Assembly: GCF_000711195.1 (NCBI RefSeq)
Contig: NZ_JOMR01000001.1
Coordinates: forward strand, 1,798,001 to 1,862,000
Length of the DNA stretch: 64,000 nucleotides
Reading direction: 5' to 3'
Source of the DNA: Thiomicrospira pelophila DSM 1534
GTDB lineage: Bacteria; Pseudomonadota; Gammaproteobacteria; Thiomicrospirales; Thiomicrospiraceae
Below are positions 1,340 through 55,283 of the stretch, in pieces; the first letter of the stretch is position 1; every line of letters starts with the position of its first letter. Position numbers and translations under genes: made by a program. Below the pieces are notes generated by a model. That model was not told where the DNA came from. It searched no databases and saw only the letters and a program-made list of their open reading frames with translations.

Positions 1340-1503
1340 GGTTTTAAATCCGTCTAATGATTGGGCTTGTTCAAGATAAATTAAACCATAAAGTCTTTAG
1401 AAGATAACTAAAAAACAGTTCTGCCAATATGCCATTCAGCTCAAACCTATTTACACGATTTTAAATAAAGACCAAATACCTGTAAAAACACTACTTAAAA
1501 AAA

Positions 1504-1527
1504 AAGCTGAACATTTCTGTTCAGCTT
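1504..1527 (-). terminator. Intrinsic terminator of tRNA-Ser
   Basis: A perfect 10-bp inverted repeat (arms 1504-1513 and 1518-1527, AAGCTGAACA, 4-nt loop) is followed on the minus strand by a run of T (plus-strand A-run from 1497). It lies just downstream of the tRNA-Ser 3' end. Confidence 0.85.
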
Positions 1528-1537
1528 ATACGTAATT

Positions 1538-1628
1538 TGGCGGAGAGCGGGGGATTCGAACCCCCGATAGGCTATTAACCTATACGCGCTTTCCAGGCGC
1601 GCTCCTTCAACCGCTCAGACAGCTCTCC
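1538..1628 (-). tRNA. tRNA-Ser (anticodon GGA)
   Basis: On the minus strand the 91-nt sequence begins GGAGAGCTGTCTGAGCGG and ends GCTCTCCGCCA. The acceptor stem GGAGAGC/GCTCTCC pairs perfectly, the discriminator is G, and CCA is encoded. The anticodon arm has loop CTGGAAA with anticodon GGA. A long variable arm (TATAGGTTAATAGCCTATC region) identifies the type II serine tRNA. The T arm carries GGTTCGAATCC. It would read UCC and UCU codons. Confidence 0.97.
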
Positions 1629-1676
1629 AAATTGTGTGCGGATTATATAGGCTATTCATATCTGTGTCCAGAACAA

Positions 1677-2150
1677 CTAGGGCACACGTATCACGCTATA
1701 ACCTAGCTTTTTATAGTCATTTAATTGGGCTGTCCCTGATGGGGCGACATCAATAAAAGACGGGAAATCATCAATGGTTTTATTAACCCGCCCCGCCACG
1801 ACTTCGCAAACATGAACCGTCACACCCTGCTGGTGCATTTGCTCAAAAGCCTGTTGATAAGGCTGACGGCTAAAGCTCTTACTGAACGCCTCCAGCTCTC
1901 GACCGTGACTAATGATAACCACGTCCAACTCTGCAAACGCCTGTTTTAAAGCCGTAACTTGATGTTGAATATAGGACGTGCGATTTTCAACAAAATTGGC
2001 TTCTCGACTTAATAACTCCAATACCACCCCTGCTGGTGCTTGATTGGTCTCAATCCAATTTGCGACTTGTGGATGCAAACTCGGACTGGCCAAAGCTGAA
2101 CCAGCCAACATTAAACTTAAATATACGACCATCTTGATGAAACGTGACAT
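1677..2150 (-). CDS. Exported DsrE/F-like protein
   Basis: A 157-aa protein with a clear signal peptide (MSRFIKMVVYLSLMLAGSALA, cleavage expected after ALA), so probably periplasmic. The mature part shows a DsrE-type fold pattern: a hydrophobic strand followed by SHG (VVIISHGREL), a helix, then a Cys-containing strand VTVHVCEVV and a terminal YKKLGYSVIRV. In DsrE/DsrF relatives a cysteine in this area can handle sulfane sulfur; here the single Cys is near residue 114. The start is well supported by AAGGAGGTG 5-6 nt upstream of ATG. The gene follows the GlcG-like gene on the same strand, but a palindrome-built terminator separates them. Family assignment is by pattern only; function is not established. 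Confidence 0.7.
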   Translation of the reverse strand: MSRFIKMVVYLSLMLAGSALASPSLHPQVANWIETNQAPAGVVLELLSREANFVENRTSYIQHQVTALKQAFAELDVVIISHGRELEAFSKSFSRQPYQQAFEQMHQQGVTVHVCEVVAGRVNKTIDDFPSFIDVAPSGTAQLNDYKKLGYSVIRVP

Positions 2151-2182
2151 AACGCACCTCCTTTATTTGAGGCATAAAAAAA

Positions 2183-2192
2183 CCAGGCCTGG
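2183..2192. repeat. Iterated palindrome, copy 1
   Basis: CCAGGCCTGG in context ACCAGGCCTGGT; intergenic, first half of the terminator pair 3' of the GlcG-like gene. Confidence 0.9.
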
Positions 2193-2210
2193 TGGTATTA
2201 AACAATATCA

Positions 2211-2220
2211 CCAGGCCTGG
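2211..2220. repeat. Iterated palindrome, copy 2
   Basis: CCAGGCCTGG in context ACCAGGCCTGGT; intergenic, second half of the same terminator pair. Confidence 0.9.
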
Positions 2221-2248
2221 TTGAACGTTACAAAAAATGTAAATTACA

Positions 2249-2743
2249 TTACATCATTTCCAAGTCCATCTGCACCGCTTCAAAACCTGCAACAGCACAT
2301 TCTTCGTCAATATCACCACCTGGCGCACCACTCACACCTACGGCACCATACAAACGCCCACCGGCTGAAATCGTAACCGAACCGGCCATAAAGGCTAACC
2401 CTTCACCCAAAGTTGGTAAGGCACCTTCAGCTTGACTCGTTAGCTGTGAACCTTTGGCATTAAACATTACCGAAGTATAAGCTTTTTTCTGACTGATAGA
2501 AATTGAGACAGGTGGCGCCATCGTATCGCGAATAATGGTTTGAACAATACCATTACGATCAACCACGGTAGCCGTAACCGGAATGCCTTTTGCTTCACAC
2601 GCTTTTACTGCACCAACCGCTATTTTTGTCGCAACTTCTGATGTTAAACGTGGCACATCTACAGTCAAGGCTTGAGCTTGTGGCAATAAGCCAACCATCA
2701 AACCTGCACTTAATAAACCGGCCTTAATTGAGTTCTTTAACAT
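2249..2743 (-). CDS. Exported GlcG/HbpS-family protein
   Basis: A 164-aa protein with a signal peptide (hydrophobic core AGLLSAGLMVGLLPQ, cleavage near AQA-LTV). The rest matches the GlcG/HbpS (DUF336) family in order: a lysine/alanine-rich first helix (KIAVGAVKACEAKG), VTATVVDRNGIVQ, the QKKAYTSVMFNAKGS segment, ALPTLGEGLAFMAG, and the glycine-rich GRLYGAVGVSGAPGGDIDEECA. Family members bind haem or small cofactors or are of unknown role, and exported forms are common in proteobacteria. The start is supported by GGGAGGA upstream of ATG. It is 96 bp from, and divergent to, the SPFH gene. No substrate can be assigned from sequence. Confidence 0.85.
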   Translation of the reverse strand: MLKNSIKAGLLSAGLMVGLLPQAQALTVDVPRLTSEVATKIAVGAVKACEAKGIPVTATVVDRNGIVQTIIRDTMAPPVSISISQKKAYTSVMFNAKGSQLTSQAEGALPTLGEGLAFMAGSVTISAGGRLYGAVGVSGAPGGDIDEECAVAGFEAVQMDLEMM

Positions 2744-2838
2744 ACATCCTCCCAGAATGGTTTTTGTGTTACATTTTATTTTAATTAAACAGCGCTATGA
2801 ATATTAACACCACACAGGTTAAATGGAGATAAACCGTT

Positions 2839-3756
2839 ATGGAATTCACATTTTTTACATTAATTTTACTAGGTGTGATTTTTGTCTACCTGGCCTCAGG
2901 AGTACGCATTGTGCCGCAGGCTGAATTGCAAGTAGTTGAACGCCTTGGACGTTACCACCGAACCTTGCACGGTGGTTTAAACTTTATTATTCCGGTGATT
3001 GATCGCGTGCGCTCCAAATTTGGCACCCAAGAACAGGTGATTGATATTCCAGTGCAAAAGGTTATTACCAAAGACAACGTCAGCATTGTGATCGATGGTT
3101 TGGTGTTTTTAAGAATTAGCGATGCTAGACAAGCTACCTATGAAATCCTCAATCTTAAACATGCGATTGCTCAGTTAGCGCAAACCACGCTACGTTCTGA
3201 AATCGGCAAGATGGATTTGGACGATACGCTTTCGTCTCGTGACACACTTAACGCCACTTTGTTGATGGCGTTAGACGGTGCATCGGCTAATTGGGGTGCC
3301 AAAGTGACACGTGTTGAAATTTCGGATATTTCTGTGCCCGAAGCCGTACAGCACGCGATGGAGTTACAGTTACGTGCCGAACGTGAACGCCGAGCCACTG
3401 AAACGGAAGCGGAAGGCTTAAAAAATGCCACCATTGCGAAAGCCGAAGGTGATCGCCAAAAAGCCTTTAAGGAAGCCGAAGCAATTGAACGAACCTCTGA
3501 TGCAAAACGTTACGAACAAATTCAACTTGCGCAAGGTCAGCAACAAGCCATCGAAATGCTGGCGTTGGCCATGCAATCCAACCCAAACGCGGCTGAATTC
3601 TTGCTGGCTAAAGACCGAATTAAAGCTTGGGAAGGCATTGCCGCGAGTGACTCGGCAAACAAGGTGGTGATTCCGTATGAAGCCTCAGAGTTAATCGGTT
3701 CATTAAGCGCATTGCAATCGCTATTTGTTGGCCAAAATGCAGGAAACATCAAATGA
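2839..3756 (+). CDS. SPFH/stomatin-like membrane protein (QmcA type)
   Basis: A 305-aa protein with one N-terminal membrane helix (FFTLILLGVIFVYLASGV) and then the SPFH/band-7 domain: VPQAELQVVERLGRY, HGGLNFIIPVIDRV, the QVIDIPVQKVITKDN strand and the LRSEIGKMDLD helix. An alanine/glutamate-rich coiled-coil region follows (RAERERRATETEAEG, ending near residue 240). Length and layout match E. coli QmcA (YbbK). These proteins oligomerise at the inner membrane and help organise quality-control proteases and membrane microdomains. A GGAG ribosome site precedes the ATG. The stop overlaps the start of the nfeD gene by 4 bp (ATGA), the usual SPFH-NfeD pairing. Confidence 0.92.
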   Translation: MEFTFFTLILLGVIFVYLASGVRIVPQAELQVVERLGRYHRTLHGGLNFIIPVIDRVRSKFGTQEQVIDIPVQKVITKDNVSIVIDGLVFLRISDARQATYEILNLKHAIAQLAQTTLRSEIGKMDLDDTLSSRDTLNATLLMALDGASANWGAKVTRVEISDISVPEAVQHAMELQLRAERERRATETEAEGLKNATIAKAEGDRQKAFKEAEAIERTSDAKRYEQIQLAQGQQQAIEMLALAMQSNPNAAEFLLAKDRIKAWEGIAASDSANKVVIPYEASELIGSLSALQSLFVGQNAGNIK

Positions 3757-4196: not shown

Positions 4197-5320
4197 TGCG
4201 CTGGATTGTGCTAAGTTTATTAATACTTAACCACCAGGCCTGGTCGCAGAGTTCTGAGCTGGCGATCAGCGATCCACTTCAATATGTCAGTCAACTTGAA
4301 ACACAAGTGGCGACCTCCTCTTCCGACCTATCCCTTGCACAACTTAAATCCCAACTAAAAGAAAAACGCGTGATTCATGTCGGGGAAATTCATCCCCGAT
4401 ATAGTGATCACTTAATTCAACTGGCAATGCTACAAAGTCTGCACCAACATTCGCCTAACGTTGCGATTGGGGTGGAATGGTTTCAACAACCCTTTCAACC
4501 CTGGTTAGATGCTTATATTTTAGGGCGGATTGATGAAGCTGAACTGCTGCATCAAACGCAATATTATCAACGCTGGCGCGTCGACTTTCGGCTATTGCGA
4601 CCCATTTTGCAATACGCTCGCCAACACCAACTGCGCATTCTCGCGCTAAATGCGCCAGCTGAATTAACCCGCCAGGTTTCAAGCTTAGGTCGCCAAAGTT
4701 TGAGCATGGAGCAGCTCGCCAACCTACCCAAAATTCATCCACCCGGCGCGGAACAACATCAACGTTTAAGCCGAATTTTTGAAGATAAGATTCCCGCCGA
4801 TCGTGAGATAGAAGATTTTATCTTTGCCCAGCGTATTTGGGACGAAACCATGGCGCGTAACGCGGTGGATTTTCTGAAACAGAATCCAGACCATAAATTA
4901 GTAATCTTTGCTGGCAACTTTCATCTAGCCTATCAAGCGGCGATTCCGGAAGATATGGCACGCCAAATCCCCCAGCTTAAAGAACAGCAGGTCACCATTA
5001 GTAGTGGTTCATTTGAAGATTATGAGCCGGGTGCATTTGATTATTTTGTGTTCACCGACCCGATTGAACTACCCCGCCACGCCCGACTTGGTGCGCGACT
5101 TAACACACAAAATGCCTGCATCGAATCAATCGAACCAGATAGTGCCGCCGAGAAAACTGGTCTGATGGTGGGTGATTGTCTTATTAAATTCAATGAGACA
5201 CGCCTAAGCCATTATGCAGATTTAATCCTAAAACTCAGCGAAACGCCGGCCGAGTCTTCTGCAAAGCTCACGCTAAAAAGACAAAAAGAAACCATTCAAG
5301 TTGAAATACAGTTTAACTAA
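4196..5320 (+). CDS. chaN: ChaN-family protein with C-terminal PDZ domain
   Basis: A 374-aa exported protein. The N-terminal hydrophobic segment (WIVLSLLILNHQAWSQ) acts as a signal peptide without an obvious lipobox cysteine. Residues ~60-290 match the ChaN/DUF399 haem-binding family: VIHVGEIHPRYSDHL near the start, VAIGVEWFQQPFQP, and the late VIFAGNFHLAYQ. A PDZ domain follows (ARLGARLNTQNACIESIEPDSAAEKTGLMVGD). ChaN-family proteins are linked to haem/iron uptake in other bacteria; the PDZ fusion suggests a protein-binding partner. It starts one base before the nfeD stop ends, so it is the third gene of the SPFH operon. The signal peptide's cleavage region is encoded by a copy of the iterated palindrome. 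Convergent rlmJ ends 11 bp away with no terminator visible. Confidence 0.88.
   Translation: MRWIVLSLLILNHQAWSQSSELAISDPLQYVSQLETQVATSSSDLSLAQLKSQLKEKRVIHVGEIHPRYSDHLIQLAMLQSLHQHSPNVAIGVEWFQQPFQPWLDAYILGRIDEAELLHQTQYYQRWRVDFRLLRPILQYARQHQLRILALNAPAELTRQVSSLGRQSLSMEQLANLPKIHPPGAEQHQRLSRIFEDKIPADREIEDFIFAQRIWDETMARNAVDFLKQNPDHKLVIFAGNFHLAYQAAIPEDMARQIPQLKEQQVTISSGSFEDYEPGAFDYFVFTDPIELPRHARLGARLNTQNACIESIEPDSAAEKTGLMVGDCLIKFNETRLSHYADLILKLSETPAESSAKLTLKRQKETIQVEIQFN
4234..4243. repeat. Iterated palindrome, copy 4
   Basis: CCAGGCCTGG (context ACCAGGCCTGGT) coding for Gln-Ala-Trp at residues 14-16 of the ChaN-like protein, at the end of its signal peptide. Confidence 0.9.
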
Positions 5321-7945: not shown

Positions 7946-7957
7946 TCGACTCAACCA

Positions 7958-7967
7958 CCAGGCCTGG
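7958..7967. repeat. Iterated palindrome, copy 5
   Basis: CCAGGCCTGG in full CACCAGGCCTGGTG context; intergenic, 3' of pit. Confidence 0.9.
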
Positions 7968-7975
7968 TGCTCATA

Positions 7976-7985
7976 CCAGGCCTGG
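7976..7985. repeat. Iterated palindrome, copy 6
   Basis: CCAGGCCTGG in context ACCAGGCCTGGT, 18 bp from copy 5 and forming the other arm of the same stem. Confidence 0.9.
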
Positions 7986-8079
7986 TGGTTATTCTTATCC
8001 CCTTACTCGATACTCACTTCAAATTCTGTTTTCTCTTAGCCTGTTTTCAATGGATTTATGTATTTTGGCGTTTCTCGTT

Positions 8080-8085
8080 TATAAT
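8080..8085 (+). promoter_or_regulatory. Candidate -10 box of the mevalonate operon
   Basis: TATAAT lies 7 bp before the ATG at 8093; no good -35 is seen at 16-19 bp. If used, the transcript would begin at or beside the HMG-CoA reductase start codon. No Shine-Dalgarno sequence is visible there. Confidence 0.4.
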
Positions 8086-8092
8086 GGCGCGC

Positions 8093-9133
8093 ATGACTAA
8101 TCAGACCTCTCAATTTGCCCAGATTCCGATGCAATCGGTTGGCCCATTTAAGCTAATCGGTGATGTAACTGCGGATGACTTAATGGTGCCAATGGCCACC
8201 TATGAAACCCCTTTATGGCCGTCCGTGGCACGAGGTGCACGCACGACGGCACATGCCGGTGGCATTCGAGTGACATTGGTAGATGAACGCATGACTCGCT
8301 CCATTTTGTTGCAAGCGCCGCACGCCGGGGAGGCCCATCGTTGTTTACAGGCTTTGAAAGCGCGCAAAGACGAAATGCAAGTTCAAGTGAGCCAATCCAG
8401 CCGCTTCGCCAAGCTGATTGATATCCACAGCCAAATTATCGGCAACTTGATTTATTTACGTCTGGAGTTCACCACCGGTGACGCGTCTGGTCATAATATG
8501 GCAACGCAAGCGGCCGACACTTTAATTCCATGGATTTTGGCAGAATACAATCAGTTGGAATATGTCTCAATTTCGGCGAACTATTGCACGGATAAAAAAG
8601 TCTCGGCGGTCAATGGTATTTTAGGGCGCGGTAAAAACGTGGTCTGCGAAACCACCATTCCAGCTAAACTCTGTAGCCGTTTTTTGAAAACCACTCCGCA
8701 GGCCTTAGTTGATTTACACATTAAGAAAGATCTCATCGGCTCAATCGTGTCCGGCGGTTTACGTACGGCAAATGCACATGTCGCCAACATGTTACTGGGT
8801 TTCTATTTAGCTACAGGCCAAGATGCCGCCAATATCGTAGAAGGCTCTCAAGCCATTAACCATGCTGAAGTGACACCTGACGGTGACTTGTATTTTTCGA
8901 CCACTTTGCCCAACTTGATTGTTGGCACAGTAGGCAATGGCAAAGGTTTGGACTTTGTGCAAGCCAACTTAGAACAACTCGGTTGCGCCAACTCGCAAGC
9001 CCAACCAGGTGACAATGCTCGACGCCTGGCTTGCATTGCCGGCGCCACCGCTTTATGTGGCGAACTGTCTCTATTAGCGGCGCAAACTAACCCAGGCGAA
9101 CTTATGGCCGCTCACCTAAAACTGGAACGTTAG
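8093..9133 (+). CDS. mvaA: Hydroxymethylglutaryl-CoA reductase (class I-like)
   Basis: Reduces HMG-CoA to mevalonate, the committed step of the pathway. From ATG 8093 (MTNQTSQFAQ) the protein is 346 aa, a bare catalytic domain without a membrane anchor. Catalytic landmarks resemble class I (eukaryote/archaea) enzymes: the Glu in PMATYETPLW (E38), the Lys in NYCTDKKVSA followed by GRGKNVVCE, the Asp of GQDAANIVEG, and a C-terminal His in AAHLKLER. The usual DAMGMNM motif reads DASGHNM. A longer open frame upstream to 7967 overlaps the terminator stem and is not credible; ATG 8084 is the only close alternative. It is the first gene of the operon, 4 bp before fni. Confidence 0.92.
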   Translation: MTNQTSQFAQIPMQSVGPFKLIGDVTADDLMVPMATYETPLWPSVARGARTTAHAGGIRVTLVDERMTRSILLQAPHAGEAHRCLQALKARKDEMQVQVSQSSRFAKLIDIHSQIIGNLIYLRLEFTTGDASGHNMATQAADTLIPWILAEYNQLEYVSISANYCTDKKVSAVNGILGRGKNVVCETTIPAKLCSRFLKTTPQALVDLHIKKDLIGSIVSGGLRTANAHVANMLLGFYLATGQDAANIVEGSQAINHAEVTPDGDLYFSTTLPNLIVGTVGNGKGLDFVQANLEQLGCANSQAQPGDNARRLACIAGATALCGELSLLAAQTNPGELMAAHLKLER

Positions 9134-9137
9134 CCCC

Positions 9138-10187
9138 GTGAGCCAGTCGCACAATATTACCCAACGTAAACAAGACCATATTGATCATCTATTACAAGAT
9201 AGAGAAATTGAGCGCGCCCAATCCGGCTTTGATGCAATTCAGCTTAACCATCGCGGCCTGCCAGAACTCGATTTTGATCAACTCGATTCATCCAGTGCCC
9301 TACTAGAAAAGCCCTTAAGTTTTCCGTTACTGATTTCCTCCATGACAGGCGGAGGTTCGGATAATTTGGTTAACATCAATCGACATTTAGCCCAAGCCGC
9401 CGAATCTCAACAAGTTGCTTTGGCAGTCGGCTCGCAACGAGCGATGATCCAAGACCCAAACGCGCGCAAAAGTTTTGAACTGCGCCAATATGCGCCCACA
9501 ATTCCAATACTAGCCAATTTGGGAGCCGTACAGCTCAACACTGGGTTTGGAGTCGATGAAGCTCGCGCGGCGGTAGATGTTGTGCAAGCAGATGCTCTCA
9601 TTCTGCACCTAAATCCGTTGCAAGAATTGATTCAGCCAGAAGGAGACCGAAACTTTGCTGGGCTCGCCGATAAAATTCACCAGCTAGCGCAAAATTTACC
9701 GGTGCCGATTGTGTTAAAAGAAGTCGGCTGCGGTCTGTCACCAGCCGATATTCAACTCGGCTTAGAGGCGGGCATTCGGTATTTTGATTTAGCTGGACGT
9801 GGCGGCACATCTTGGAGTCGGATAGAGGCGCATCGTGCCCAGTCAGATCTGGGCATGTTGTTTCAAGATTGGGGTATCACTACCCCTCAAGCCCTGCAAC
9901 TGGCGCGCCCATACCAAGACCAAGCCAAGTTCTTTGCCAGCGGTGGGATTCGTAATGGTATTGACATGGTTAAATCGGTTATAATGGGCGGCTGTGTCTG
10001 TGGTTTAGCCGCCCCCTTCCTCACCCCAGCGATTGAGTCAGCGCAAGCGGTAGAGCAAAAGATACAACAACTAAAACAAGAGTTTCAGGTTGCGCAATTT
10101 TTAGTGGGCGCGGCCAACATAAAGTCACTATTTTTAAACGACGCGCACCTTTTGCGCATTAACGGCGGAAAGAACCCTAGGTTATGA
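9138..10187 (+). CDS. fni: Type 2 isopentenyl-diphosphate delta-isomerase (FMN-dependent)
   Basis: Interconverts IPP and DMAPP using reduced FMN. The 349-aa protein has the type 2 landmarks: RKQDHIDHLL at the N-terminus, LLISSMTGGG, ALAVGSQRAMI, PILANLGAVQ, the HLNPLQELIQPEGDR segment (metal/substrate Gln-Glu), VLKEVGCGLS, DLAGRGGTSW, and the FMN-phosphate region FASGGIRNG with the following GG..CGLAAPFL. The start is GTG at 9138, 4 bp after the reductase stop. The stop overlaps mvaS by ATGA, so translation is probably coupled. Presence of the type 2 rather than type 1 enzyme is usual with bacterial mevalonate operons. Confidence 0.95.
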   Translation: MSQSHNITQRKQDHIDHLLQDREIERAQSGFDAIQLNHRGLPELDFDQLDSSSALLEKPLSFPLLISSMTGGGSDNLVNINRHLAQAAESQQVALAVGSQRAMIQDPNARKSFELRQYAPTIPILANLGAVQLNTGFGVDEARAAVDVVQADALILHLNPLQELIQPEGDRNFAGLADKIHQLAQNLPVPIVLKEVGCGLSPADIQLGLEAGIRYFDLAGRGGTSWSRIEAHRAQSDLGMLFQDWGITTPQALQLARPYQDQAKFFASGGIRNGIDMVKSVIMGGCVCGLAAPFLTPAIESAQAVEQKIQQLKQEFQVAQFLVGAANIKSLFLNDAHLLRINGGKNPRL

Positions 10188-11356
10188 GTCAGAATGTCGG
10201 CATAGATTTAATCCATTTTGCGACCGCAGATTTTTATCTTGGGTTGGATGTTTTTGCGCAACAAAAAAACCAAGATGTGGATAAATATCTGGTCGGCATT
10301 GGCCAAGAAAAAATGTCGATTGCTCCGCCGGATGAAGACATCGTGACTTTATCAGCGAAAGCCGCCGAGCCTATTTTGGCCCAAGTCGATCGCGACAAAA
10401 TCAGTGCGGTTTTTTTTGCCACCGAATCTGGAGTTGATCAATCTAAATCGGCAGGGGCCTTTGTGCACAGCCTGTTAAATCTGCCAAATCGTTGCCGCGT
10501 GATTGAACTCAAGCACGCCTGTTATGCTGGCGCCGCCGCCCTGCAGATGGCGGTTAATACCGTTAAAGCCAATCCAAAAGAGCAAGTATTAGTAATTGCG
10601 GCGGATATCGCTCGTTACGACTTAGACACTTCTGGTGAAGCGACCCAAGGTTGTGGGGCGGTGGCTATGCTGATAAAAACCGAGCCGCGTATTTTAGCGA
10701 TTGAGGCGGGATCGGGTTACCATACAGAAGATGTAATGGATTTTTGGCGTCCCAATCACCGCGAAACCGCGTTGGTGGACGGTAAATACTCCACCAAAGT
10801 TTATCTCAGTAGCCTTAAGTTTGCCTGGCAACATTTCACCGAAGAGACCGGTCGCAGTTTTGAGGATATTCAACAGTTTTGTTATCACATTCCATTTACA
10901 AAAATGGCTGAAAAAGCTCACAAGCAATTGGTTAAACAAGTCGGTCTAAAGCAAACGGATCAACAAACCAGTCAACAAGTCGCCGCCAGCCAAGTCTATA
11001 ACCGAGTGATTGGCAACAGTTACAGTGCGTCCCTGTTTGTTGGGTTTTGCTCGCTACTTGACCACAAACCCCATTTAGACGATCAACGCATCGGCTTTTT
11101 TAGCTATGGTTCTGGCTGTGTGGCCGAATTTTTTAGTGGCGTGATTCAGCCGGGTTATCAATCCGTGCTGATGACTCGCGAGCATCAATGCAGTATTGAA
11201 GCGCGCAGTCCACTCACCTATCAACAATACCTAGACTTGTATCATCACAGCGAGCCTAACCAAGCCAATATTACCTTCCCTGAATACCATGCTGGGCCTT
11301 TCCGTTTAAGCGGCATTCAAGACCATAAACGTTGTTACCTTAAAACGGGTCAATAA
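10184..11356 (+). CDS. mvaS: Hydroxymethylglutaryl-CoA synthase
   Basis: Condenses acetyl-CoA with acetoacetyl-CoA to HMG-CoA. The 390-aa thiolase-fold protein carries the catalytic Glu in FATESG (E81), the acylated Cys in ELKHACYAG (C113) and the catalytic His in CYHIPFTKM (near residue 236). Other family landmarks are AADIARYDL, FWRPNHRETALVDGKYS, RVIGNSYSASL and FSYGSG. Length matches bacterial MvaS (~385-390 aa). Translation is coupled to fni (ATGA) and the gene is followed 3 bp later by mevalonate kinase. Confidence 0.96.
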   Translation: MSQNVGIDLIHFATADFYLGLDVFAQQKNQDVDKYLVGIGQEKMSIAPPDEDIVTLSAKAAEPILAQVDRDKISAVFFATESGVDQSKSAGAFVHSLLNLPNRCRVIELKHACYAGAAALQMAVNTVKANPKEQVLVIAADIARYDLDTSGEATQGCGAVAMLIKTEPRILAIEAGSGYHTEDVMDFWRPNHRETALVDGKYSTKVYLSSLKFAWQHFTEETGRSFEDIQQFCYHIPFTKMAEKAHKQLVKQVGLKQTDQQTSQQVAASQVYNRVIGNSYSASLFVGFCSLLDHKPHLDDQRIGFFSYGSGCVAEFFSGVIQPGYQSVLMTREHQCSIEARSPLTYQQYLDLYHHSEPNQANITFPEYHAGPFRLSGIQDHKRCYLKTGQ

Positions 11357-11359
11357 AGC

Positions 11360-12385
11360 ATGATAACGCGCTGTACTGTGCCCGCAAAACTGATCCTCAG
11401 TGGCGAGCATGCTGTTCTATACGGCGCGCCTGCTTTGAGTATGGCGATTAATTTAACCACCGAGTCTCAGCTCACATTCCAACCCAATAAACATCAGAAA
11501 ATCGAGATTCAATTAACCGATTATGACAAGCACCTGGCCTGGTCGTTTAGCGAAGCTTGGGATCAAGTTATAGAAATCGAAGCGCGTTATAAGACTTTCG
11601 AGAAAGGCTTAAAATCAATCCGCCAAGTCTGTCAGCAACCTTTTGATCTGGTACTTTTGTGTTTATTTCACTTCCAACAGCATTTTCAACTTGAGCCGGG
11701 TCACTGGACAATCAATATCCACTCCAATGTTTGGGTTGGGCGTGGTTTGGGCAGTTCGGCATCGGTTATTGTAAGCCTGTTAAGTGGACTGTTTAAGCAT
11801 CATAATATTCAAAACGAATCCGCCCTACTCGCTTTAGCGCAAACTGTGGAGTCTCGACAGCACGGTCAATCCAGCGGCTTAGACCCAGTGAGTGTTTTGT
11901 ACGGTGGATTAGTGCGCTATCAACAACACAAAGCACTCCAAAACTTACCTTCGCACCGTTTCCAGGCCTGGTTAATTGATACCGGTGAACCCAGCCGGAC
12001 AACCGGTGAATGCGTTAGCCAAGTCAAAGCTCAGCATGCGGAAGATATGGCTTTATGGGAAACCTTTACCCAGTGTACCAATGAAATCCATAAAGCTTGG
12101 CTCGCGCACGATGGCGCGGCTTTAAAACAGGCGATTCGTACGAATCAGTCTTTGTTGGAACGAATTGGCGTGGTGCCTGATAAAGTTGTTCGATTCATTC
12201 AACAACTCCAGCAAACCCCCAATTGCGCGGCCAAAGTATGCGGCGCGGGTAGTATCGCAGGCGATCAAGCCGGGGTAGTGATGGCCATCTGCGAGCAAGA
12301 CCCGACCGACTTATGCACGGAATGGGGTTTTGTTTGCCAAAAGATTCAAATCGACCAACAAGGCGCGCGCTGCCAAGCCGATTAG
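11360..12385 (+). CDS. mvk: Mevalonate kinase (GHMP family)
   Basis: Phosphorylates mevalonate at O5. The 341-aa GHMP kinase has motif 1 as PAKLILSGEHAVLYG (residues 8-22), the ATP loop GRGLGSSAS at 128-136, the catalytic Asp in SSGLDPVSV (D175), and the glycine-rich motif 3 KVCGAGSIAGDQAG. These are the mevalonate-kinase forms of each motif. Residues FQAW (~198-201) come from a copy of the iterated palindrome. A near copy, CCTGGCCTGG at 11533, encodes LAW. It lies 3 bp after mvaS, within the operon. The next gene starts 10 bp after the stop. Confidence 0.92.
   Translation: MITRCTVPAKLILSGEHAVLYGAPALSMAINLTTESQLTFQPNKHQKIEIQLTDYDKHLAWSFSEAWDQVIEIEARYKTFEKGLKSIRQVCQQPFDLVLLCLFHFQQHFQLEPGHWTINIHSNVWVGRGLGSSASVIVSLLSGLFKHHNIQNESALLALAQTVESRQHGQSSGLDPVSVLYGGLVRYQQHKALQNLPSHRFQAWLIDTGEPSRTTGECVSQVKAQHAEDMALWETFTQCTNEIHKAWLAHDGAALKQAIRTNQSLLERIGVVPDKVVRFIQQLQQTPNCAAKVCGAGSIAGDQAGVVMAICEQDPTDLCTEWGFVCQKIQIDQQGARCQAD
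11962..11971. repeat. Iterated palindrome, copy 7
   Basis: CCAGGCCTGG in mvk, Gln-Ala-Trp frame (RFQAWL). The flanks are t and t, so the 12-mer is broken on the left side. Confidence 0.88.
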
Positions 12386-12395
12386 AGGAAAATTC

Positions 12396-13379
12396 ATGCC
12401 GTCTGAACCTGCTCAAAACACGATTCAATATATAAGCAGCGCCCCCGCCAACGTTATGATTATGGGCGAACACAGCGTGGTTTACGGCCAACCCGCTCTA
12501 GTCGCAAGCCTGATTCCGCGTATCTATATTGAATGGTCACCACGAGACGATCAACAGCTCGAGATTATTTCAGAACTTGCACATTTCACCACGTCATTAA
12601 ACAAGATTGAAGATCATCCTAAACTACGCTTTGTGCTGGCAGCTTTAAAAGCCTTTACCCCTCAACTATCTCAAGGTTGGACGTTACGCATTCACAGCGA
12701 GTTTCCAGATGATTGGGGATTAGGCAGTTCGGCGGCGGTGTTAGCGGCTTGCCTAGTTGGATTGGAAAGCATTAGCCAACAAGCCTTAACCACTTGGCAA
12801 CGTTTTGAGATTGGGCATCGCTGCATATTGGATATTCAAGGTCGTGGTTCAGGTGCGGATTTGGCGGCTAGCTTAAGCGGCGGACTGGTATATTTTGATC
12901 CCAGCCATCAAGTCATTCAACCCATCAAAATTCCGCTGGATGTCTGTCTGGTTTATAGCGGCTACAAAACCCCCACCAGCGAAGTATTAGCCCACGTAGC
13001 CCAAACTTGGGCGGATCGCCCCGAAACACTGGAAAAATTATATCAACAAATGGGCGACTGCACGCGTACAGCTTATGAAGTCTTGATGCAAACACACTCA
13101 GCCCAAGACCTAGCCTTTTACCAGCAGATTAAACACTATCAACAACTCATGATCAAACTAGGGGTTAGCGACCCGACATTGGATGCCATTATTCACCAAC
13201 TAAACGAATGCTTGCCCGCTGCCAAGATATCCGGTTCAGGATTGGGTGACTGCGTTATAGGCTTCGGCCATATCGACGCACTGCCACCCTATAAAATCAT
13301 GAATACCCGCATTAGTTCACGTCCCGCTGAGTGTATTCCACAGCCAACTACAAATCACCAACCCAAGGTCACCCTATGA
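12396..13379 (+). CDS. Second GHMP kinase, probable phosphomevalonate kinase
   Basis: From ATG 12396 (MPSEPAQNTI; AGAGGAAA 6-7 nt upstream) the protein is 327 aa; an open frame reaching back to 12330 overlaps mvk and lacks a ribosome site. GHMP landmarks: SAPANVMIMGEHSVVYG (15-31), ATP loop GLGSSAA (108-114), the putative catalytic Asp in GSGADLAASLSGG (D155), and motif 3 KISGSGLGD. Motif 1 looks mevalonate-kinase-like, so sequence alone does not fix the substrate. The operon has genes for every other step and lacks phosphomevalonate kinase, which makes that the likely role (inference). The stop overlaps mvaD by ATGA. Confidence 0.75.
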   Translation: MPSEPAQNTIQYISSAPANVMIMGEHSVVYGQPALVASLIPRIYIEWSPRDDQQLEIISELAHFTTSLNKIEDHPKLRFVLAALKAFTPQLSQGWTLRIHSEFPDDWGLGSSAAVLAACLVGLESISQQALTTWQRFEIGHRCILDIQGRGSGADLAASLSGGLVYFDPSHQVIQPIKIPLDVCLVYSGYKTPTSEVLAHVAQTWADRPETLEKLYQQMGDCTRTAYEVLMQTHSAQDLAFYQQIKHYQQLMIKLGVSDPTLDAIIHQLNECLPAAKISGSGLGDCVIGFGHIDALPPYKIMNTRISSRPAECIPQPTTNHQPKVTL

Positions 13380-14389
13380 AGTCTTCCCAAGCCTTGAGCG
13401 CCCAACAAATTATCAAGCAATTAATCCCGAGCAAATCAACCACTAAAGCACAAGGTTTTGGCGAAGCGCCGGTTAATATTGCGTTGAGTAAATATTGGGG
13501 CAAACGTCAGGTATCTCTTAACTTACCCACCAATTCTAGCTTATCAATCAGTTTGCCAGGGCTGGGAACCCAAACTCATTTGAGCTTAGTTGAAAATAAC
13601 GACAATACTGAGGACCAGGCCTGGTTGAATGGCAAACGTTTAGCTGGGGATTCAGAATTTGCAGGACGTTTAAGCCGCTATTTGGACTTGTTTCGTCCTG
13701 CTCATCATTATTTTAAAATCGACACCATTAACTCCGTGCCAACGGCTGCAGGTTTAGCGTCATCCGCTTCCGGTTATGCGGCCTTGGTGAAAGCTTTAAA
13801 TGATTTGTTTGACTGGCAGCTCAATCAGCGTTCGCTGTCGATTTTAGCGCGCTTAGGTAGTGGTAGCGCAAGTCGGTCTTTGTTTGATGGCTTCGCTATT
13901 TGGCACAAAGGCCAAGCGGAAGATGGCATGGATTCGTTTGCCGAAGCCTTACCTGAAACTTGGGCGGGCTTGTGCATTGGTTTAGTCAAAATTGATACGA
14001 CTGAAAAACCGATAGGTTCAACGGCCGGTATGCAGAAAACCGTCAACACTTGCGAGCTCTACCAGGCCTGGCCAACCCAGGCCGAACGTCAAGTTAAGCT
14101 GATTCAACAAGCGATTCAAGAGCACGACTTTACCTTAATAGGCGAAACCGCCGAACACAATGCCCTATCCATGCATGCCACCATGATCGCAACCTGGCCA
14201 CCTATATTGTACTGGCAAGCCGAGTCTGTATTGGCGATGCAAAAGGTTTGGCAGTTACGCCAGCAAGGCGTTGAGGTTTACTTTACGATGGATGCGGGCC
14301 CGAACTTAAAACTGATTTTTCTGGAGCCAAATAAAAACGCGGTCAAGGCCGCGTTTCAAGAGTTAGATGTGATTCAACCGTTTGGTTAA
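13376..14389 (+). CDS. mvaD: Diphosphomevalonate decarboxylase
   Basis: ATP-dependent decarboxylation of mevalonate diphosphate to IPP. Start taken at ATG 13376 (MKSSQALSAQ), giving 337 aa and an ATGA overlap with the upstream kinase; an open frame from 13331 lies inside that kinase. Family motifs: NIALSKYWGKR (~34-44), LPTNSSLSISL, the ATP loop SVPTAAGLASSASG, the decarboxylase-specific GSGSASRSLFDGF with the catalytic Asp, HNALSMHATM, and TMDAGPNLK near the C-terminus. Two copies of the iterated palindrome lie inside (DQAWL and YQAWP). It ends the operon; convergent sspB lies 5 bp away and no terminator hairpin is visible between them. Confidence 0.95.
   Translation: MKSSQALSAQQIIKQLIPSKSTTKAQGFGEAPVNIALSKYWGKRQVSLNLPTNSSLSISLPGLGTQTHLSLVENNDNTEDQAWLNGKRLAGDSEFAGRLSRYLDLFRPAHHYFKIDTINSVPTAAGLASSASGYAALVKALNDLFDWQLNQRSLSILARLGSGSASRSLFDGFAIWHKGQAEDGMDSFAEALPETWAGLCIGLVKIDTTEKPIGSTAGMQKTVNTCELYQAWPTQAERQVKLIQQAIQEHDFTLIGETAEHNALSMHATMIATWPPILYWQAESVLAMQKVWQLRQQGVEVYFTMDAGPNLKLIFLEPNKNAVKAAFQELDVIQPFG
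13615..13624. repeat. Iterated palindrome, copy 8
   Basis: CCAGGCCTGG in mvaD, Gln-Ala-Trp frame (EDQAWL), full ACCAGGCCTGGT context. Confidence 0.9.
14062..14071. repeat. Iterated palindrome, copy 9
   Basis: Second CCAGGCCTGG in mvaD, Gln-Ala-Trp frame (LYQAWP); the right flank is c instead of t. Confidence 0.88.
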
Positions 14390-21888: not shown

Positions 21889-22971
<1,083 letters not shown>

Positions 22972-28240: not shown

Positions 28241-29245
28241 TTAGGATGTCTTTTTTATTAAATTTTTAAAGGCTAATAAATCCGAACGTAATGCTAAATC
28301 AGCTGGATAAGGATCAAAGATCAATTGATCTTGAAGATACTCCACTTCATATTCATCCACCCATTGTTGTAACAACTTCATCATCGCGACCAAGGGAACA
28401 ATACCTTGCCGAAACTCATCAAGTGTATCGCGATACAATTCTTTCTGGCTAGGCCCTAAATGGTTTTTAACGAATCCATATAAATGCTCCAGAACATTCA
28501 GCATATTACTACGCTGCGTCTTAGTCGCGAGTGCTTGATAAAGCAAGGTTTGATATTGTTCGATAACCTGCGCCCAGTTATCCAAACTGGCCTGAGCAAC
28601 AATCGGCCCCATCTTGCGGTAAATCGCTTCATTTTTCGATAGCAATAAAAATTTATGTTGACGATGAAAGGTTTGCAAATGCACCAGGCCTGGTGCTTGG
28701 CTCAAAAATACGCGCCAGCGTGCCTGCGTAAACAGCTGCAGAACAAAATTTTCTCGCAACCAAGGGTCTTGCAACCGCCCCTCATCTTCAACCGCCAGGT
28801 GGGGTATCGCTTGTTGCAAAGCTTGCGTAAACAAACCCTGACCGATACCTTTATCAGACCCCAACCACTCACCGGTTGGACGATATATTTTGATTCGATC
28901 CAAGCCGCAAGAAGGTGATTTAGATTTAACCACGGCGCCATCAATGCCTTTCTTCTGCAAACGCGCGACCATCTTATGATTATAATCCAATAAACCTTCC
29001 GTATAGTCGGCACCCGACTTGCCACCTAGTACTCGCAACTCACCGTCAACTCGACATAAGCGCACACTTTCACGAGGCGTTCCCATCGCCGCATCTTCGG
29101 GGCAAAAAGGTACAAAGTCGACATACTTGGCCAACCGATCCGTGACAAAATCGTCTTGTGCATGACCACCGTTATAACGACATTTCACACCCAACAAACA
29201 ATTCGACACCGCTAACTGAACTTTTGGATAAGTTGACTTAGTCAT
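28241..29245 (-). CDS. DUF523 (TudS-like)-DUF1722 fusion protein
   Basis: A 334-aa two-domain protein from ATG 29245 (MTKSTYPKVQ, with AAAGGAG 7 nt upstream; an in-frame GTG at 29260 is less likely). Residues ~7-155 match DUF523, with three conserved cysteines in SNCLLGVKCRYNGGH, FCPEDAAMGTPRE and SKSPSCG. The TudS thiouracil desulfidases of this family hold a [4Fe-4S] cluster on such cysteines. Residues ~165-330 are the DUF1722 (YbgA) domain, starting WLRENFVLQLFTQARWRVFL. Residues PGLV (~182) come from a palindrome copy. Thiouracil or thio-nucleobase desulfuration is a family-based possibility, not demonstrated. Confidence 0.85.
   Translation of the reverse strand: MTKSTYPKVQLAVSNCLLGVKCRYNGGHAQDDFVTDRLAKYVDFVPFCPEDAAMGTPRESVRLCRVDGELRVLGGKSGADYTEGLLDYNHKMVARLQKKGIDGAVVKSKSPSCGLDRIKIYRPTGEWLGSDKGIGQGLFTQALQQAIPHLAVEDEGRLQDPWLRENFVLQLFTQARWRVFLSQAPGLVHLQTFHRQHKFLLLSKNEAIYRKMGPIVAQASLDNWAQVIEQYQTLLYQALATKTQRSNMLNVLEHLYGFVKNHLGPSQKELYRDTLDEFRQGIVPLVAMMKLLQQWVDEYEVEYLQDQLIFDPYPADLALRSDLLAFKNLIKKTS
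28684..28693. repeat. Iterated palindrome, copy 11
   Basis: CCAGGCCTGG in full CACCAGGCCTGGTG context within the DUF523-DUF1722 gene, read on the minus strand as Pro-Gly-Leu (QAPGLVHL). Confidence 0.9.
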
Positions 29246-31558: not shown

Positions 31559-33046
31559 ATGAAAAAAATCCATTTTAACTTAATCCCCAATCCAAACCTG
31601 ACTAACTTCGACACCCTAGTTTTACCCGTGTTTGACAAAGGTCGATCTATTAGTGCGGCCGCCAGTTTTGGTTTACATGAACTGATTGAAAAGCTTGATG
31701 CACAAGATGACTTTAAAGGTAAGTGCGGTCAAACCTTAATGCTATTAAATCAAAACCTCCTCAATGGTGCGCGCTTATTGTTAGTTGGCCTTGGTGACCC
31801 AGATAAATTGACCGCTAAAAGCTATATTAGCGCAATCCAAGCGATGGCCAAAGCGCTTGACAACAGCGGTGCTTGCCAGATTCTCGACACCACTCATTTG
31901 GCGACACCAAGCGATCAGCTTGGTCAGTGGGGACTTTTCCAAAACAGTTTAATTCTGCAACGTAGTTTTTATGACTATGCCCACGCCAGCCGTGGCGAAC
32001 ATACCGCCAAAGACCCGAAATTAAGCCAAGTCACGTTTATGTCTGAAGACAGTCAAGAATACAAACTAGCGGTGTCACAAGGTCAAGCGACCGCAATTGG
32101 CATGGCGTTAACCCAAGACCTCGCCAACATGCCGAGCAACTTCTGCACCCCCGCTTATTTGGCCGAAACCGCGATTGAACTCGGTAAACAGGCGGGCTTT
32201 AACGTTCAAGTATTAGAGCGTGAACAAATGCTTGAAATGGGCATGGGGGCCTTTATGTCAGTTGCTCAGGGTACCGACACCCCACCCAAAATGATTTCGA
32301 TTCAATACCAAGGTGGCTCAGCGGATCAAGCCCCAATTGCACTAGTAGGCAAAGGCGTAACCTTTGATACCGGCGGTATTTCACTTAAGCCTGGCGCCAG
32401 TATGGATGAAATGAAATACGATATGGGTGGTGCGGCCACGGTACTAGGTGTATTCCAAGCATTGGCCGAGCTTAAGCCTAATATTAATGTGGTCGGTGTG
32501 ATCCCGTCTACTGAAAACATGCCCTCTGGCAATGCGGTCAAGCCGGGCGATGTGGTTACATCCTTGTCGGGTCAAACCATTGAAGTATTAAATACCGATG
32601 CCGAAGGTCGCTTGTTATTGTGTGACGCCCTCACCTATGCACAGCAAACTTACCAACCAGGCCTGGTGATTGATATCGCCACCTTAACGGGCGCTTGTAT
32701 TATTGCGTTGGGCAACCATGTTTCGGGCTTACTAGGGAACGACCAAGCATTGATTGACCAACTGTTAAAAGCAGGTAACACAACTTATGATCGTTTCTGG
32801 CAACTGCCACTAGGCGAAGAATGGGATGAGCAGCTTAAATCAAACTTTGCGGATATGGCCAACATTGGGGGTCGCGAAGCCGGTACAATTACTGCCGCTC
32901 AGTTTTTAGCACGCTATACCAAAGACGTTAAATGGGCACACTTGGATATTGCCGGAACGGCTTGGCAGTCGGGCGCGAACAAAGGGGCATCCGGTCGCCC
33001 AGTACCCGCCTTAGTTGAGTTCATCCTTCAACAAGCGCAATCCTAA
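31559..33046 (+). CDS. pepA: Leucyl aminopeptidase (M17)
   Basis: A 495-aa cytosolic metallo-aminopeptidase. The C-terminal catalytic domain shows the two-metal site and catalytic residues: LVGKGVTFDTGGISLKPG, MDEMKYDMGGAATVLG, NMPSGNAVKPGDVV, and the M17 signature NTDAEGRLLLCDALTYA. LTGACIIALG and WAHLDIAGTAW follow. The N-terminal domain (~1-170) is the variable region; in E. coli PepA also acts as a DNA-binding repressor and Xer accessory protein. Residues QPGLV next to the metal site are encoded by a palindrome copy. A possible -10 (TATAAA, 31511-31516) lies upstream. Confidence 0.97.
   Translation: MKKIHFNLIPNPNLTNFDTLVLPVFDKGRSISAAASFGLHELIEKLDAQDDFKGKCGQTLMLLNQNLLNGARLLLVGLGDPDKLTAKSYISAIQAMAKALDNSGACQILDTTHLATPSDQLGQWGLFQNSLILQRSFYDYAHASRGEHTAKDPKLSQVTFMSEDSQEYKLAVSQGQATAIGMALTQDLANMPSNFCTPAYLAETAIELGKQAGFNVQVLEREQMLEMGMGAFMSVAQGTDTPPKMISIQYQGGSADQAPIALVGKGVTFDTGGISLKPGASMDEMKYDMGGAATVLGVFQALAELKPNINVVGVIPSTENMPSGNAVKPGDVVTSLSGQTIEVLNTDAEGRLLLCDALTYAQQTYQPGLVIDIATLTGACIIALGNHVSGLLGNDQALIDQLLKAGNTTYDRFWQLPLGEEWDEQLKSNFADMANIGGREAGTITAAQFLARYTKDVKWAHLDIAGTAWQSGANKGASGRPVPALVEFILQQAQS
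32657..32666. repeat. Iterated palindrome, copy 12
   Basis: CCAGGCCTGG in pepA, Pro-Gly-Leu frame (YQPGLVID), full ACCAGGCCTGGT context, 15 codons after the active-site NTDAEGR motif. Confidence 0.9.
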
Positions 33047-33473: not shown

Positions 33474-33497
33474 GCACCAGGCCTGGTGCTTAGCTTT
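33466..33497. terminator. Perfect 32-bp palindrome at the holC stop
   Basis: Positions 33466-33481 are exactly complementary to 33482-33497, centred on copy 13 of CCAGGCCTGG, with A3/T3 ends. It spans the holC stop codon and lies between convergent genes. With no loop it would form a hairpin only with its central bases unpaired. A terminator role is inferred from position. Confidence 0.6.
33477..33486. repeat. Iterated palindrome, copy 13
   Basis: CCAGGCCTGG at the centre of the 32-bp palindrome, beginning 3 bp after the holC stop. Confidence 0.9.
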
Positions 33498-41941: not shown

Positions 41942-42397
41942 TTAACGACACCAATCCACAGAAACATCACTGCTGTCTTTCACGGAACCATTGCCATTCA
42001 TTGTTTTAGACTGACGGGTGAACTTGCTAGCGGTCAACATCCAGTTAGAAAAAACGGGATAAGTTTGTCGCGTTAACTCGGCCATTTTCTCTGGGTCCGA
42101 ACTTGGAAAGTCCAGCATACGCGCCGCCAATCGGAAAATAATCTGCATATTATCTGCGTCTAACGTTTGCGGATTAAAATAAGTTATCTTACTTAATACA
42201 ATGCGTGAACGAACTAGATCCAAGTCATCACCTTCCGGCATTTTATCTTTAAAATAGCGTTCAACCAGGCCTGGTTGTGACCAATTCAAAATATTAATCA
42301 TGGGTTCTATGCCCAACATAGCCATTGAACCCTTTCTAAATCTTAACGGAATTTCTGCTAAAAAACCTTTCTCGAGTTTATAGTTTTTATCCAGCAT
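41942..42397 (-). CDS. Hypothetical protein coupled to the PilZ-like gene
   Basis: A 151-aa protein from ATG 42397 (MLDKNYKLEKGFLAEIPLRFRKG); ATG 42415 would add six residues. No signal peptide or membrane segment. I do not recognise a family. It is mixed helix/strand with a run of charged residues (KDKMPEGDDLDLVRSRIVLSK), and ends in an Asn/Ser-rich tail NGNGSVKDSSDVSVDWCR. Residues QPGLV come from a palindrome copy. It overlaps the end of the PilZ-like gene by about 11 bp, so the two are probably translated together and may interact. Confidence 0.7.
   Translation of the reverse strand: MLDKNYKLEKGFLAEIPLRFRKGSMAMLGIEPMINILNWSQPGLVERYFKDKMPEGDDLDLVRSRIVLSKITYFNPQTLDADNMQIIFRLAARMLDFPSSDPEKMAELTRQTYPVFSNWMLTASKFTRQSKTMNGNGSVKDSSDVSVDWCR
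42265..42274. repeat. Iterated palindrome, copy 14
   Basis: CCAGGCCTGG in the hypothetical gene, read on the minus strand as Pro-Gly-Leu (SQPGLVER). Confidence 0.9.
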
Positions 42398-43334
42398 TGG
42401 CCATCCAGTCAGCACACTGGCTAATTTCGAATTGATTCATGATTTTCTGAATTAACATCTGTTGCGAGCGATCCGGAAAATCAAAGTTAATACGCAAACA
42501 ATAATGAGCCGTTTTTGCCACCGGATCACAAGCCACTACCGAACCCTTAATACCGATTACCGAAGCATAACTATCCGAATGAAAAGCCACACATACTGAC
42601 TCACCCGGCTTAAGCGCTTTTGACTGCTCTAGCCTTATGCCACCTTCACTTAAGTTGGCCGTAATCGATTCCCATTGAGTTGGATAGCGCTTCAATACGG
42701 AGTCTTTCTGAAATTCTAAAAAACTGTCTAAACTTAGATTTACATACTCAGTTAATACGCGAATAAACTGAGGTAAAGCCAAGCCATCAAATTTTGAGTT
42801 TTTTAGTATTGATAAGTTTTGATCGGCTTGCGTTGGTGTAATGCACAAAAGCTGACGGTATTTGATTTCACGACTGTCTGAGTTCTGTGCCATATAATGG
42901 AGTTCGTTCAGGTAAGCTTTTATTTTATTTTCAATGCCTTTAAAAAAGGCATAACTTTTTGGCGCGCTGACCTTGTAGGCTTCAAGATGCTCATTTTCAG
43001 CTTTAGCTAATCTTAAATTTCGACTATAGTCCTCAAGTTTAAAAGGAGCTCGCCCAGCCTGCACAGCCTGCATCACATCATTGAAAAAAGCGATGCGTTT
43101 TATGATGTCTTTTAATACGACACCCGCTAAATCGGTATCTTCTTTAACTTTCGCTAACCAATCTTTGGCTTCGACTAGTTTATCGCTAGCTAAAGCCTGG
43201 CGTTGCTTAGTCAAGTAAATGGTGGGCGTCGCAAAGAAATCACAAGCCGGAATACGATTACGCGGCAGAATGTGAGCATAAACCGGCATATCGAGTCGAA
43301 AAAAACGTCGGCTATCTATTGTGCTTGAACTCAT
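42387..43334 (-). CDS. PilZ-like cyclic-di-GMP protein with widely split motifs
   Basis: A 315-aa soluble protein. Its N-terminus, SRRFFRLDMPVYAHI, has the RxxxR motif that starts PilZ c-di-GMP sites (R9, R13). The companion (D/N)xSxxG motif appears as NLSEGG only at residues 227-232, followed by a plausible PilZ barrel (LKPGESVCVAFHS, IGIKGSVVACDP, HYCLRINFDFPD). In ordinary PilZ domains the two motifs are about 20-35 residues apart; here ~210 mostly helical residues intervene. Binding of c-di-GMP is therefore an inference. It is followed by and overlaps the hypothetical gene at 41942. Confidence 0.78.
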   Translation of the reverse strand: MSSSTIDSRRFFRLDMPVYAHILPRNRIPACDFFATPTIYLTKQRQALASDKLVEAKDWLAKVKEDTDLAGVVLKDIIKRIAFFNDVMQAVQAGRAPFKLEDYSRNLRLAKAENEHLEAYKVSAPKSYAFFKGIENKIKAYLNELHYMAQNSDSREIKYRQLLCITPTQADQNLSILKNSKFDGLALPQFIRVLTEYVNLSLDSFLEFQKDSVLKRYPTQWESITANLSEGGIRLEQSKALKPGESVCVAFHSDSYASVIGIKGSVVACDPVAKTAHYCLRINFDFPDRSQQMLIQKIMNQFEISQCADWMANAG

Positions 43335-55230: not shown

Positions 55231-55262
55231 TTATAACCCAGTCTTAAACAATTTGCTTAAGA

Positions 55263-55272
55263 CCAGGCCTGG
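55263..55272. repeat. Iterated palindrome, copy 17
   Basis: CCAGGCCTGG (context ACCAGGCCTGGT) 11 bp beyond the ilvN stop, between ilvN and ilvC. Confidence 0.9.
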
Positions 55273-55283
55273 TGGTTTATTTG

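Follow-up and report, generated by a model that had tools for sequence, protein, structure and literature searches.

The window analysed here, the whole 64,000-nt stretch from Thiomicrospira pelophila DSM 1534, carries on its minus strand a gene for a 164-aa HbpS/GlcG-like protein (PF03928; 2249-2743) and downstream of it a gene for a 157-aa DsrE/DsrF-like protein (PF02635; 1677-2150), both identified as ORFs with Pfam matches. A Shine-Dalgarno-like AAGGAGGTG precedes the second gene at 2155-2163 on the same strand. The sequence between the two genes contains the perfect 12-bp palindrome ACCAGGCCTGGT twice, in identical copies at 2182-2193 and 2210-2221, with a start-to-start spacing of 28 bp. 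Read on the minus strand, the second copy provides the 5' arm and the first copy the 3' arm of one large hairpin (2181-2222), whose 19-nt arms (2204-2222 and 2181-2199) are 95% complementary and enclose a loop of 4 nt. A T7 tract (2176-2182, minus strand; A7 on the plus strand) overlaps the end of the hairpin: its first two letters are paired in the stem and the remaining five trail it. The glcG stop codon is 26 nt from the hairpin, and the T tract is 25 nt from the start codon of the DsrE-like gene on the same strand. A preliminary description of this DNA had proposed that two copies 28 bp apart, each itself palindromic, form the arms of one big hairpin with a T7 tract on the minus strand, and the sequence bears this out on each point. 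The interval that it gave, 2176-2222, is correct except that the start falls within the A run.

The same description had suggested folding the minus-strand RNA. Over positions 2160-2235 this RNA formed a stable hairpin of -30.1 kcal/mol (z = -5.0), and 0 of 200 shuffled sequences folded as well. The plus-strand RNA folded better still (-36.2 kcal/mol, z = -8.5) but has no T run after its stem. On the minus strand we thus found the elements of an intrinsic terminator: a GC-rich hairpin beyond chance expectation that lies 3' of a gene read from the same strand, with a U tract immediately following its stem. Judged by this anatomy and by its partial conservation (see below), the site 3' of glcG is very probably an intrinsic terminator, as had been claimed. 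An Rfam scan of 1400-3000 reached the gathering score for tRNA only, the matches over the hairpin remaining below theirs. The further suggestion that the region could form two short stems as an alternative to the long one fared less well in RNA folding: the two-hairpin form had an energy of -5.7 kcal/mol vs. -29.3 kcal/mol for the long stem, the outer pair of the long stem had a probability of ∼0.97, and self-pairing of each copy had a probability of ∼1e-14 or less. The two-hairpin form is therefore negligible, and an RNA switch to two short hairpins is not supported by the energies. In the same part of the window, a tRNA-Ser gene (1538-1628, minus strand) has an ordinary terminator without the palindrome, in which a compact hairpin (1504-1527) is directly followed by a long T run.

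At the orthologous site of Thiomicrospira UBA5634 (L048; identical in L130 from genome G057) the loop differs; the two palindromes are kept, as are the T run and the DsrE-like gene. At the T. microaerophila site (L045; G055 has the identical sequence in L128), one copy is exact and the other is a near match. The exact 12-mer is absent from the 230 nt after the orthologous gene in G053, G054, G056, G059, and G060, where other hairpins are predicted at that place; a search of G058 found no GlcG-like orthologue. By these comparisons the terminator is partly conserved. The Band-7 protein encoded nearby is 96% identical to that of a Thiomicrospira sp., among its closest named relatives, in keeping with this genus.

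In the preliminary description the palindromes were taken to belong to this site alone, but they are two of 613 exact copies of ACCAGGCCTGGT in the complete T. pelophila genome (2,108,215 bases), in which the reversed control sequence occurs 0 times. The window holds 15 exact copies. Those within ORFs are found at 4233-4244 (ChaN-like/PDZ protein), 13614-13625 (mevalonate diphosphate decarboxylase-like), 28683-28694 (2-thiouracil desulfurase/DUF1722), 32656-32667 (peptidase M17), 42264-42275 (ORF 41942-42415), 44664-44675 (RNA U5-methyltransferase family), 51068-51079 (HlyD family), and 58800-58811 (peptidase M48). A second hairpin-forming pair consists of copies at 7957-7968 and 7975-7986, the latter at the listed start of ORF 7967-9133, and copies outside called ORFs lie at 22932-22943, 33476-33487, and 55262-55273. 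When up to two mismatches to the 12-mer were allowed, the window gave 29 matches vs. 1.57 expected, a number reached by 0 of 100 shuffles. In 464 kb sampled from the same genome we counted 141 copies of the 12-mer, 161 of its central 10-mer, and 205 of its central 8-mer (two-strand counts halved). Variants with a single substitution numbered 39 for the two outer half-site positions vs. 15 for the four inner ones. In copies outside ORFs the symmetry extends to ∼20 bp, in the form AASC-ACCAGGCCTGGT-GSTT, and beyond ∼4 bp the flanks vary from copy to copy. A 14-mer extension of the motif was present in 20 stretches of viral contigs, with one site apiece. Some lone copies sit at the centre of long palindromes, a second architecture besides the paired copies: the one at 33476-33487 is surrounded by 10 more symmetric pairs, and another in the same genome (L020, 5319-5330) lies in a much longer perfect palindrome with 14 further symmetric pairs.

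The position of the copies relative to genes was examined with ORFs of at least 90 codons from a greedy caller, independently of the annotation. Called ORFs contain 98 of the 141 sampled copies; the other 43 fall in the 9.6% of the DNA outside them (p = 4e-12). The gap classes were counted for the 41 of these 43 copies that have a called gene on both sides: convergent gaps hold 15 copies vs. 6.4 expected, and divergent gaps hold 4 vs. 11.3 expected. We concluded that the non-ORF copies are enriched 3' of genes. The in-ORF copies are distributed over the three reading frames as 7, 48, and 43; a repeat driven by an encoded peptide was ruled out by the use of all three frames and by the copies outside ORFs. 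Close pairs (within 50 bp) numbered 7 vs. 1.8 expected, and all 7 fold copy against copy. By inspection, an uninterrupted T run directly follows the stem in only one of the seven, the pair at 2182-2221, so that most pairs are no clear terminators. One 20-kb stretch of the genome (L024, 2000001-2020000) holds 0 copies (Poisson p = 0.002, uncorrected, for one of 21 stretches examined). One of its ORFs encodes RpoC according to Pfam, and others have, by size alone, the lengths of RpoB and elongation factors. These ORFs ruled out a foreign island as the cause of the motif-free stretch, and core expression genes may avoid the motif.

To estimate how well the copies are kept, we aligned 20 stretches from close relatives (G058, L043, and L048) with the own sequence; the aligned 104 kb have an identity of 81.3%. 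Of the own copies that could be aligned, 29 of 34 are intact vs. 12,837 of 102,174 other 12-mers (12.6%), which indicates that the copies are strongly maintained; with the relatives' copies as the starting point, the figure is 29 of 36. Three of the five non-intact copies have one substitution and two have a short alignment gap, and the whole unit is missing in none. It is nearly certain from these sequence comparisons that the palindrome is a genome-wide iterated and actively maintained element, and the conservation supports maintenance by selection or by biased conversion.

The distribution of the motif was counted in 62 family genomes; the order-level set returned the identical 62. Searches for ACCGGCCGGT, CCARCCTGGYAGATTTT, PF00145, PF01555, ComEC, PF12019, and PF11104 took in 60 of the 62. 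The 12-mer occurs in 84-718 copies per genome in 27 genomes, including 9 of 9 members of the genus, in 16-38 copies in 4 genomes, and in fewer than 10 copies in 31 genomes. Relatives without the 12-mer often appear to carry a related iterated motif. The sequence ACCGGCCGGT is present in 1025 copies in G027 and in 0-15 copies in the 59 other genomes searched. The asymmetric CCARCCTGGYAGATTTT, a core with a T tract, reaches 284, 270, and 328 copies in G007, G008, and G013, respectively; none of the 57 others has more than 1. Its orientation is mixed within single 20-kb stretches and across one genome (160 forward and 124 reverse), and in each of the three inverted pairs found in sampled stretches the stem is followed by a T run a few bases on. 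Sites centred on CAGGCCTG, some of them with outer A and T tracts, were found in sampled stretches of G024, G034, G047, and G048. Sampled stretches of G023 contain AACAGGCCGGGT, with AACAGG/CCGGGT as the hybrid of half-sites in this genome, those of G014 contain CCACCCCTGGCGAT, and in 20.9 kb of Thiomicrospira sp. ALE5 (L044) the half-site AGCAGG occurs 15 times vs. 8 for ACCAGG. Dialects seem to change half-site by half-site. Outside ORFs we counted 22 of 37 copies of CCARCCTGGYAGATTTT (4.4 expected), 22 of 56 copies of the CAGGCCTG-centred form (6.0 expected), and 32 of 117 copies of the 12-mer in G058 (13.3 expected). G027 is an exception without clear enrichment, with 2 of 16 copies outside ORFs vs. 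1.2 expected.

Inspection of other 12-mer-poor genomes revealed no clear iterated motif in G031, G043, G025, G052, G051, G030, and G029 (40 kb each), G017 (60 kb), G039 and G038 (∼33 kb), G045 (25 kb), G041 and G002 (20 kb), G004 (19 kb), G001 (9 kb), and G046 (8 kb), samples of a size that could miss a rarer motif. Two of these genomes showed other features. In G038 (L250 and L251; ∼34 kb), which is devoid of the 12-mer, there are many G/C runs of eight or more, often GGGGGGGAGAAA; possible explanations are phase-variable tracts, a different iterated element, and noise from the assembly. In G052 (L039 and L040), TTTCACGTGAAA is repeated within 40 kb and resembles parS sites near an origin.

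We then compared the distribution of the motif with that of candidate machinery. ComEC is present in 9 of 9 genus genomes, in 26 of 27 motif-bearing genomes, and also in 29 of 33 genomes without the 12-mer dialect, several of which carry other dialects. ComEC presence does not discriminate the motif-bearing genomes. PilM (PF11104) was not found in the T. pelophila genome, where the two matches to this family are MreB and FtsA. Matches to PF11104 in other genomes were judged by size alone, except in G004, where one strong PilM match on a draft-genome contig (L228) stands beside ORFs that we named pilN/O/P-like by inspection. With tblastn, the ORFs of this contig that reach 100 codons matched nothing in the T. 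pelophila stretches (∼23% of the genome). The contig may be real or contamination. FimT/GspH (PF12019) was detected in 3 of 60 genomes; none of the three is motif-bearing, and the T. pelophila genome has no match. With PilM missing from this genome and FimT/GspH from all motif-bearing ones, the standard type IV pilus route is not supported. The C5 methyltransferase family PF00145 was found in 0 of 9 genus genomes and in 9 of 27 motif-bearing vs. 13 of 33 other genomes, and PF01555 in 11 of 27 vs. 12 of 33. PF01555 is above the cut-off in five other genus members, and its sole match in the T. pelophila genome is below the cut-off and lies in an RNA methyltransferase. Neither family was found in 11 of the 27 motif-bearing genomes. 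For these two families, we concluded that methyltransferases do not co-occur with the motif.

Uptake sequences offer the closest parallels. USS are known to carry flanking tracts beside the core, and we know of no DUS or USS that is a perfect palindrome, unlike the main dialect found here. DUS of the Neisseriaceae have high-copy iteration, a shared core with species dialects, and inverted pairs suggestive of terminators (PMC3630211, in excerpt), and part of their copies lie within ORFs (PMC1939737, in excerpt). The motif described here shares the hundreds of copies, the species dialects around a shared core, the close pairs, and the presence of some copies in ORFs; its enrichment 3' of genes is a further resemblance to DUS and USS. 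In contrast to DUS, the 12-mer of the main dialect is perfectly palindromic; searches of the own genome gave neither PilM nor FimT/GspH, and a clean T run follows just one close pair in seven. A passage of PMC1939737 disputes that uptake sequences act as terminators, on the grounds that they are not palindromes. USS of the Pasteurellaceae form inverted repeats with a secondary role as terminators and are stated to be non-palindromic in the accessible part of PMC12616744. With them our motif shares an iterated core, and the asymmetric CCARCCTGGYAGATTTT core with its T tract is reminiscent of USS; sequence and family are different, and the motif is palindromic in most motif-bearing species, whereas USS is not. 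HIP1 of cyanobacteria is an iterated palindrome, and in some relatives an alternate one takes its place (PMC4390886, in excerpt). The main dialect resembles it in being a perfect iterated palindrome with other palindromes replacing it in some relatives, but it is longer (12 bp), enriched 3' of genes, non-palindromic in some dialects, and shows no co-occurrence with PF00145 or PF01555. As in ordinary intrinsic terminators, the glcG site has a GC-rich stem, a short loop, and a U tract directly after it 3' of a gene; unlike in those, the arms are built from an iterated element that is itself palindromic. The pilus parts linked to DUS and USS (PilM and FimT/GspH) were not found in this genome, and uptake is thus the best analogy rather than an established membership.

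A local terminator built from an iterated self-recognition tag of the DUS/USS type would account for these observations as a whole, an explanation to which we give slightly less than an even chance. At the locus, minus-strand RNA would leave glcG, the two palindromes would join into a single GC-rich stem by pairing, and the U tract behind it would release the transcript and limit read-through into the DsrE-like gene 25 nt on, as far as the anatomy allows such a prediction. A sequence-specific protein would recognise the iterated palindrome in double-stranded DNA, one half-site at a time. Members of the same species might take up or use tagged DNA in preference to other DNA, and tags so favoured would accumulate, spread by recombination, and drift apart into species dialects. 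Wherever two tags come to lie close together 3' of a gene and next to a T run, they would double as a terminator, as after glcG. An uptake-type function of the iterated palindrome, considered by itself, is possible and somewhat short of probable. The wider proposal that the Thiomicrospira family uses an undescribed code for DNA self-recognition, with half-sites, dialects, terminator use, and no recognisable PilM-type pilus, is doubtful as a whole; it includes the idea that half-sites might combine into palindromic or asymmetric dialects that switch between congeneric species.

Other explanations were weighed against the same data. The main rival is that the palindrome is the site of a homodimeric, intracellular nucleoid-associated or global regulatory protein and that terminators merely reuse it. 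The perfect dyad, ∼20 bp long in intergenic copies, would fit a dimer on two helical turns, and the half-site changes in G023 and ALE5 as well as the missing PilM and GspH matches in the own genome also speak for such a protein. Divergent (promoter) gaps, however, hold fewer copies than expected, a core chromosomal protein would not usually have a site that changes dialect from one congener to the next and is lost from many species, and some dialects are asymmetric with a single T tract; we consider this rival unlikely, though less so than those that follow. Maintenance of a HIP1-like palindrome by a methyltransferase-linked process, as in Elhai's model for cyanobacteria, seems improbable. A palindromic, iterated motif with an alternate palindrome in some relatives is what has been described for HIP1 (PMC4390886, in excerpt), and the concentration of substitutions at the two outer half-site positions agrees with that model, but the model needs a matching methyltransferase, and PF00145 is absent from all nine genus genomes and both families from 11 of the 27 motif-bearing ones. 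The enrichment 3' of genes is left unexplained both by this process and by a Chi-like recombination hotspot sequence. The latter would also be short, iterated, species-specific, and often located in coding DNA; a palindrome, however, cannot carry the strand polarity of Chi, and the asymmetric CCARCCTGGYAGATTTT occurs in mixed orientation, so that we regard a Chi-like role as very improbable.

The remaining two accounts have hardly any credibility as full explanations. One is an ordinary private terminator whose palindromes arose by chance or for termination alone. The good terminator anatomy makes it valid for the local role, and the 613 exact copies, with 98 of 141 sampled ones in ORFs, refute it as the full account. 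The other is a dispersed mobile repeat of the REP/MITE type inserted near genes. The high copy number and the copies that are paired or centred in longer palindromes are what such an element might leave behind, but most sampled copies lie in ORFs, the unit is just 12-20 bp long with flanks that differ beyond ∼4 bp, and the differences between orthologous sites are substitutions or short gaps and never the insertion of a whole unit.

Thiomicrospira and its relatives are sulfur-oxidising, carbon-fixing gammaproteobacteria, and to our knowledge self-recognition sequences are well established only in the Neisseriaceae and Pasteurellaceae. Among titles and the beginnings of abstracts in the open-licence literature on iterated palindromes, uptake sequences, competence, and pili in these genera, we found no description of the motif, and no report of natural competence in Thiomicrospira was apparent there. 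Among 30 of 433 matching papers, none contained the 12-mer. The accessible text of an earlier survey of uptake sequences (PMC1939737) makes no mention of Thiomicrospira, and a term search of the Hydrogenovibrio (PMC6501319) and Thioalkalimicrobium cyclicum (PMC4891895) genome papers gave no occurrence of 'pili', 'pilus', or 'competence'. If the self-recognition reading is true, the motif would be, to the best of our knowledge, the first palindromic uptake-type signal. A third family, independent of the Neisseriaceae and Pasteurellaceae, would then be at hand; it is rich in sequenced species, has a palindromic form, and shows sharp switches and losses of dialects. In it one could study how recognition protein and site co-evolve, and whether tags of this iterated kind depend on type IV pili at all. 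Should the function be other than uptake, a strongly conserved 12-bp palindrome at more than 600 sites would still demand an undescribed DNA-binding protein or repair process. In practical terms, laboratory transformation of these carbon-fixing bacteria may succeed or fail according to whether the tag is added or omitted.

Apart from the palindrome, the window carries at 7967-14389 an HMG-CoA reductase gene and the mevalonate diphosphate decarboxylase-like gene. This is likely a mevalonate-pathway cluster, and the mevalonate pathway is not the usual isoprenoid route in gammaproteobacteria.
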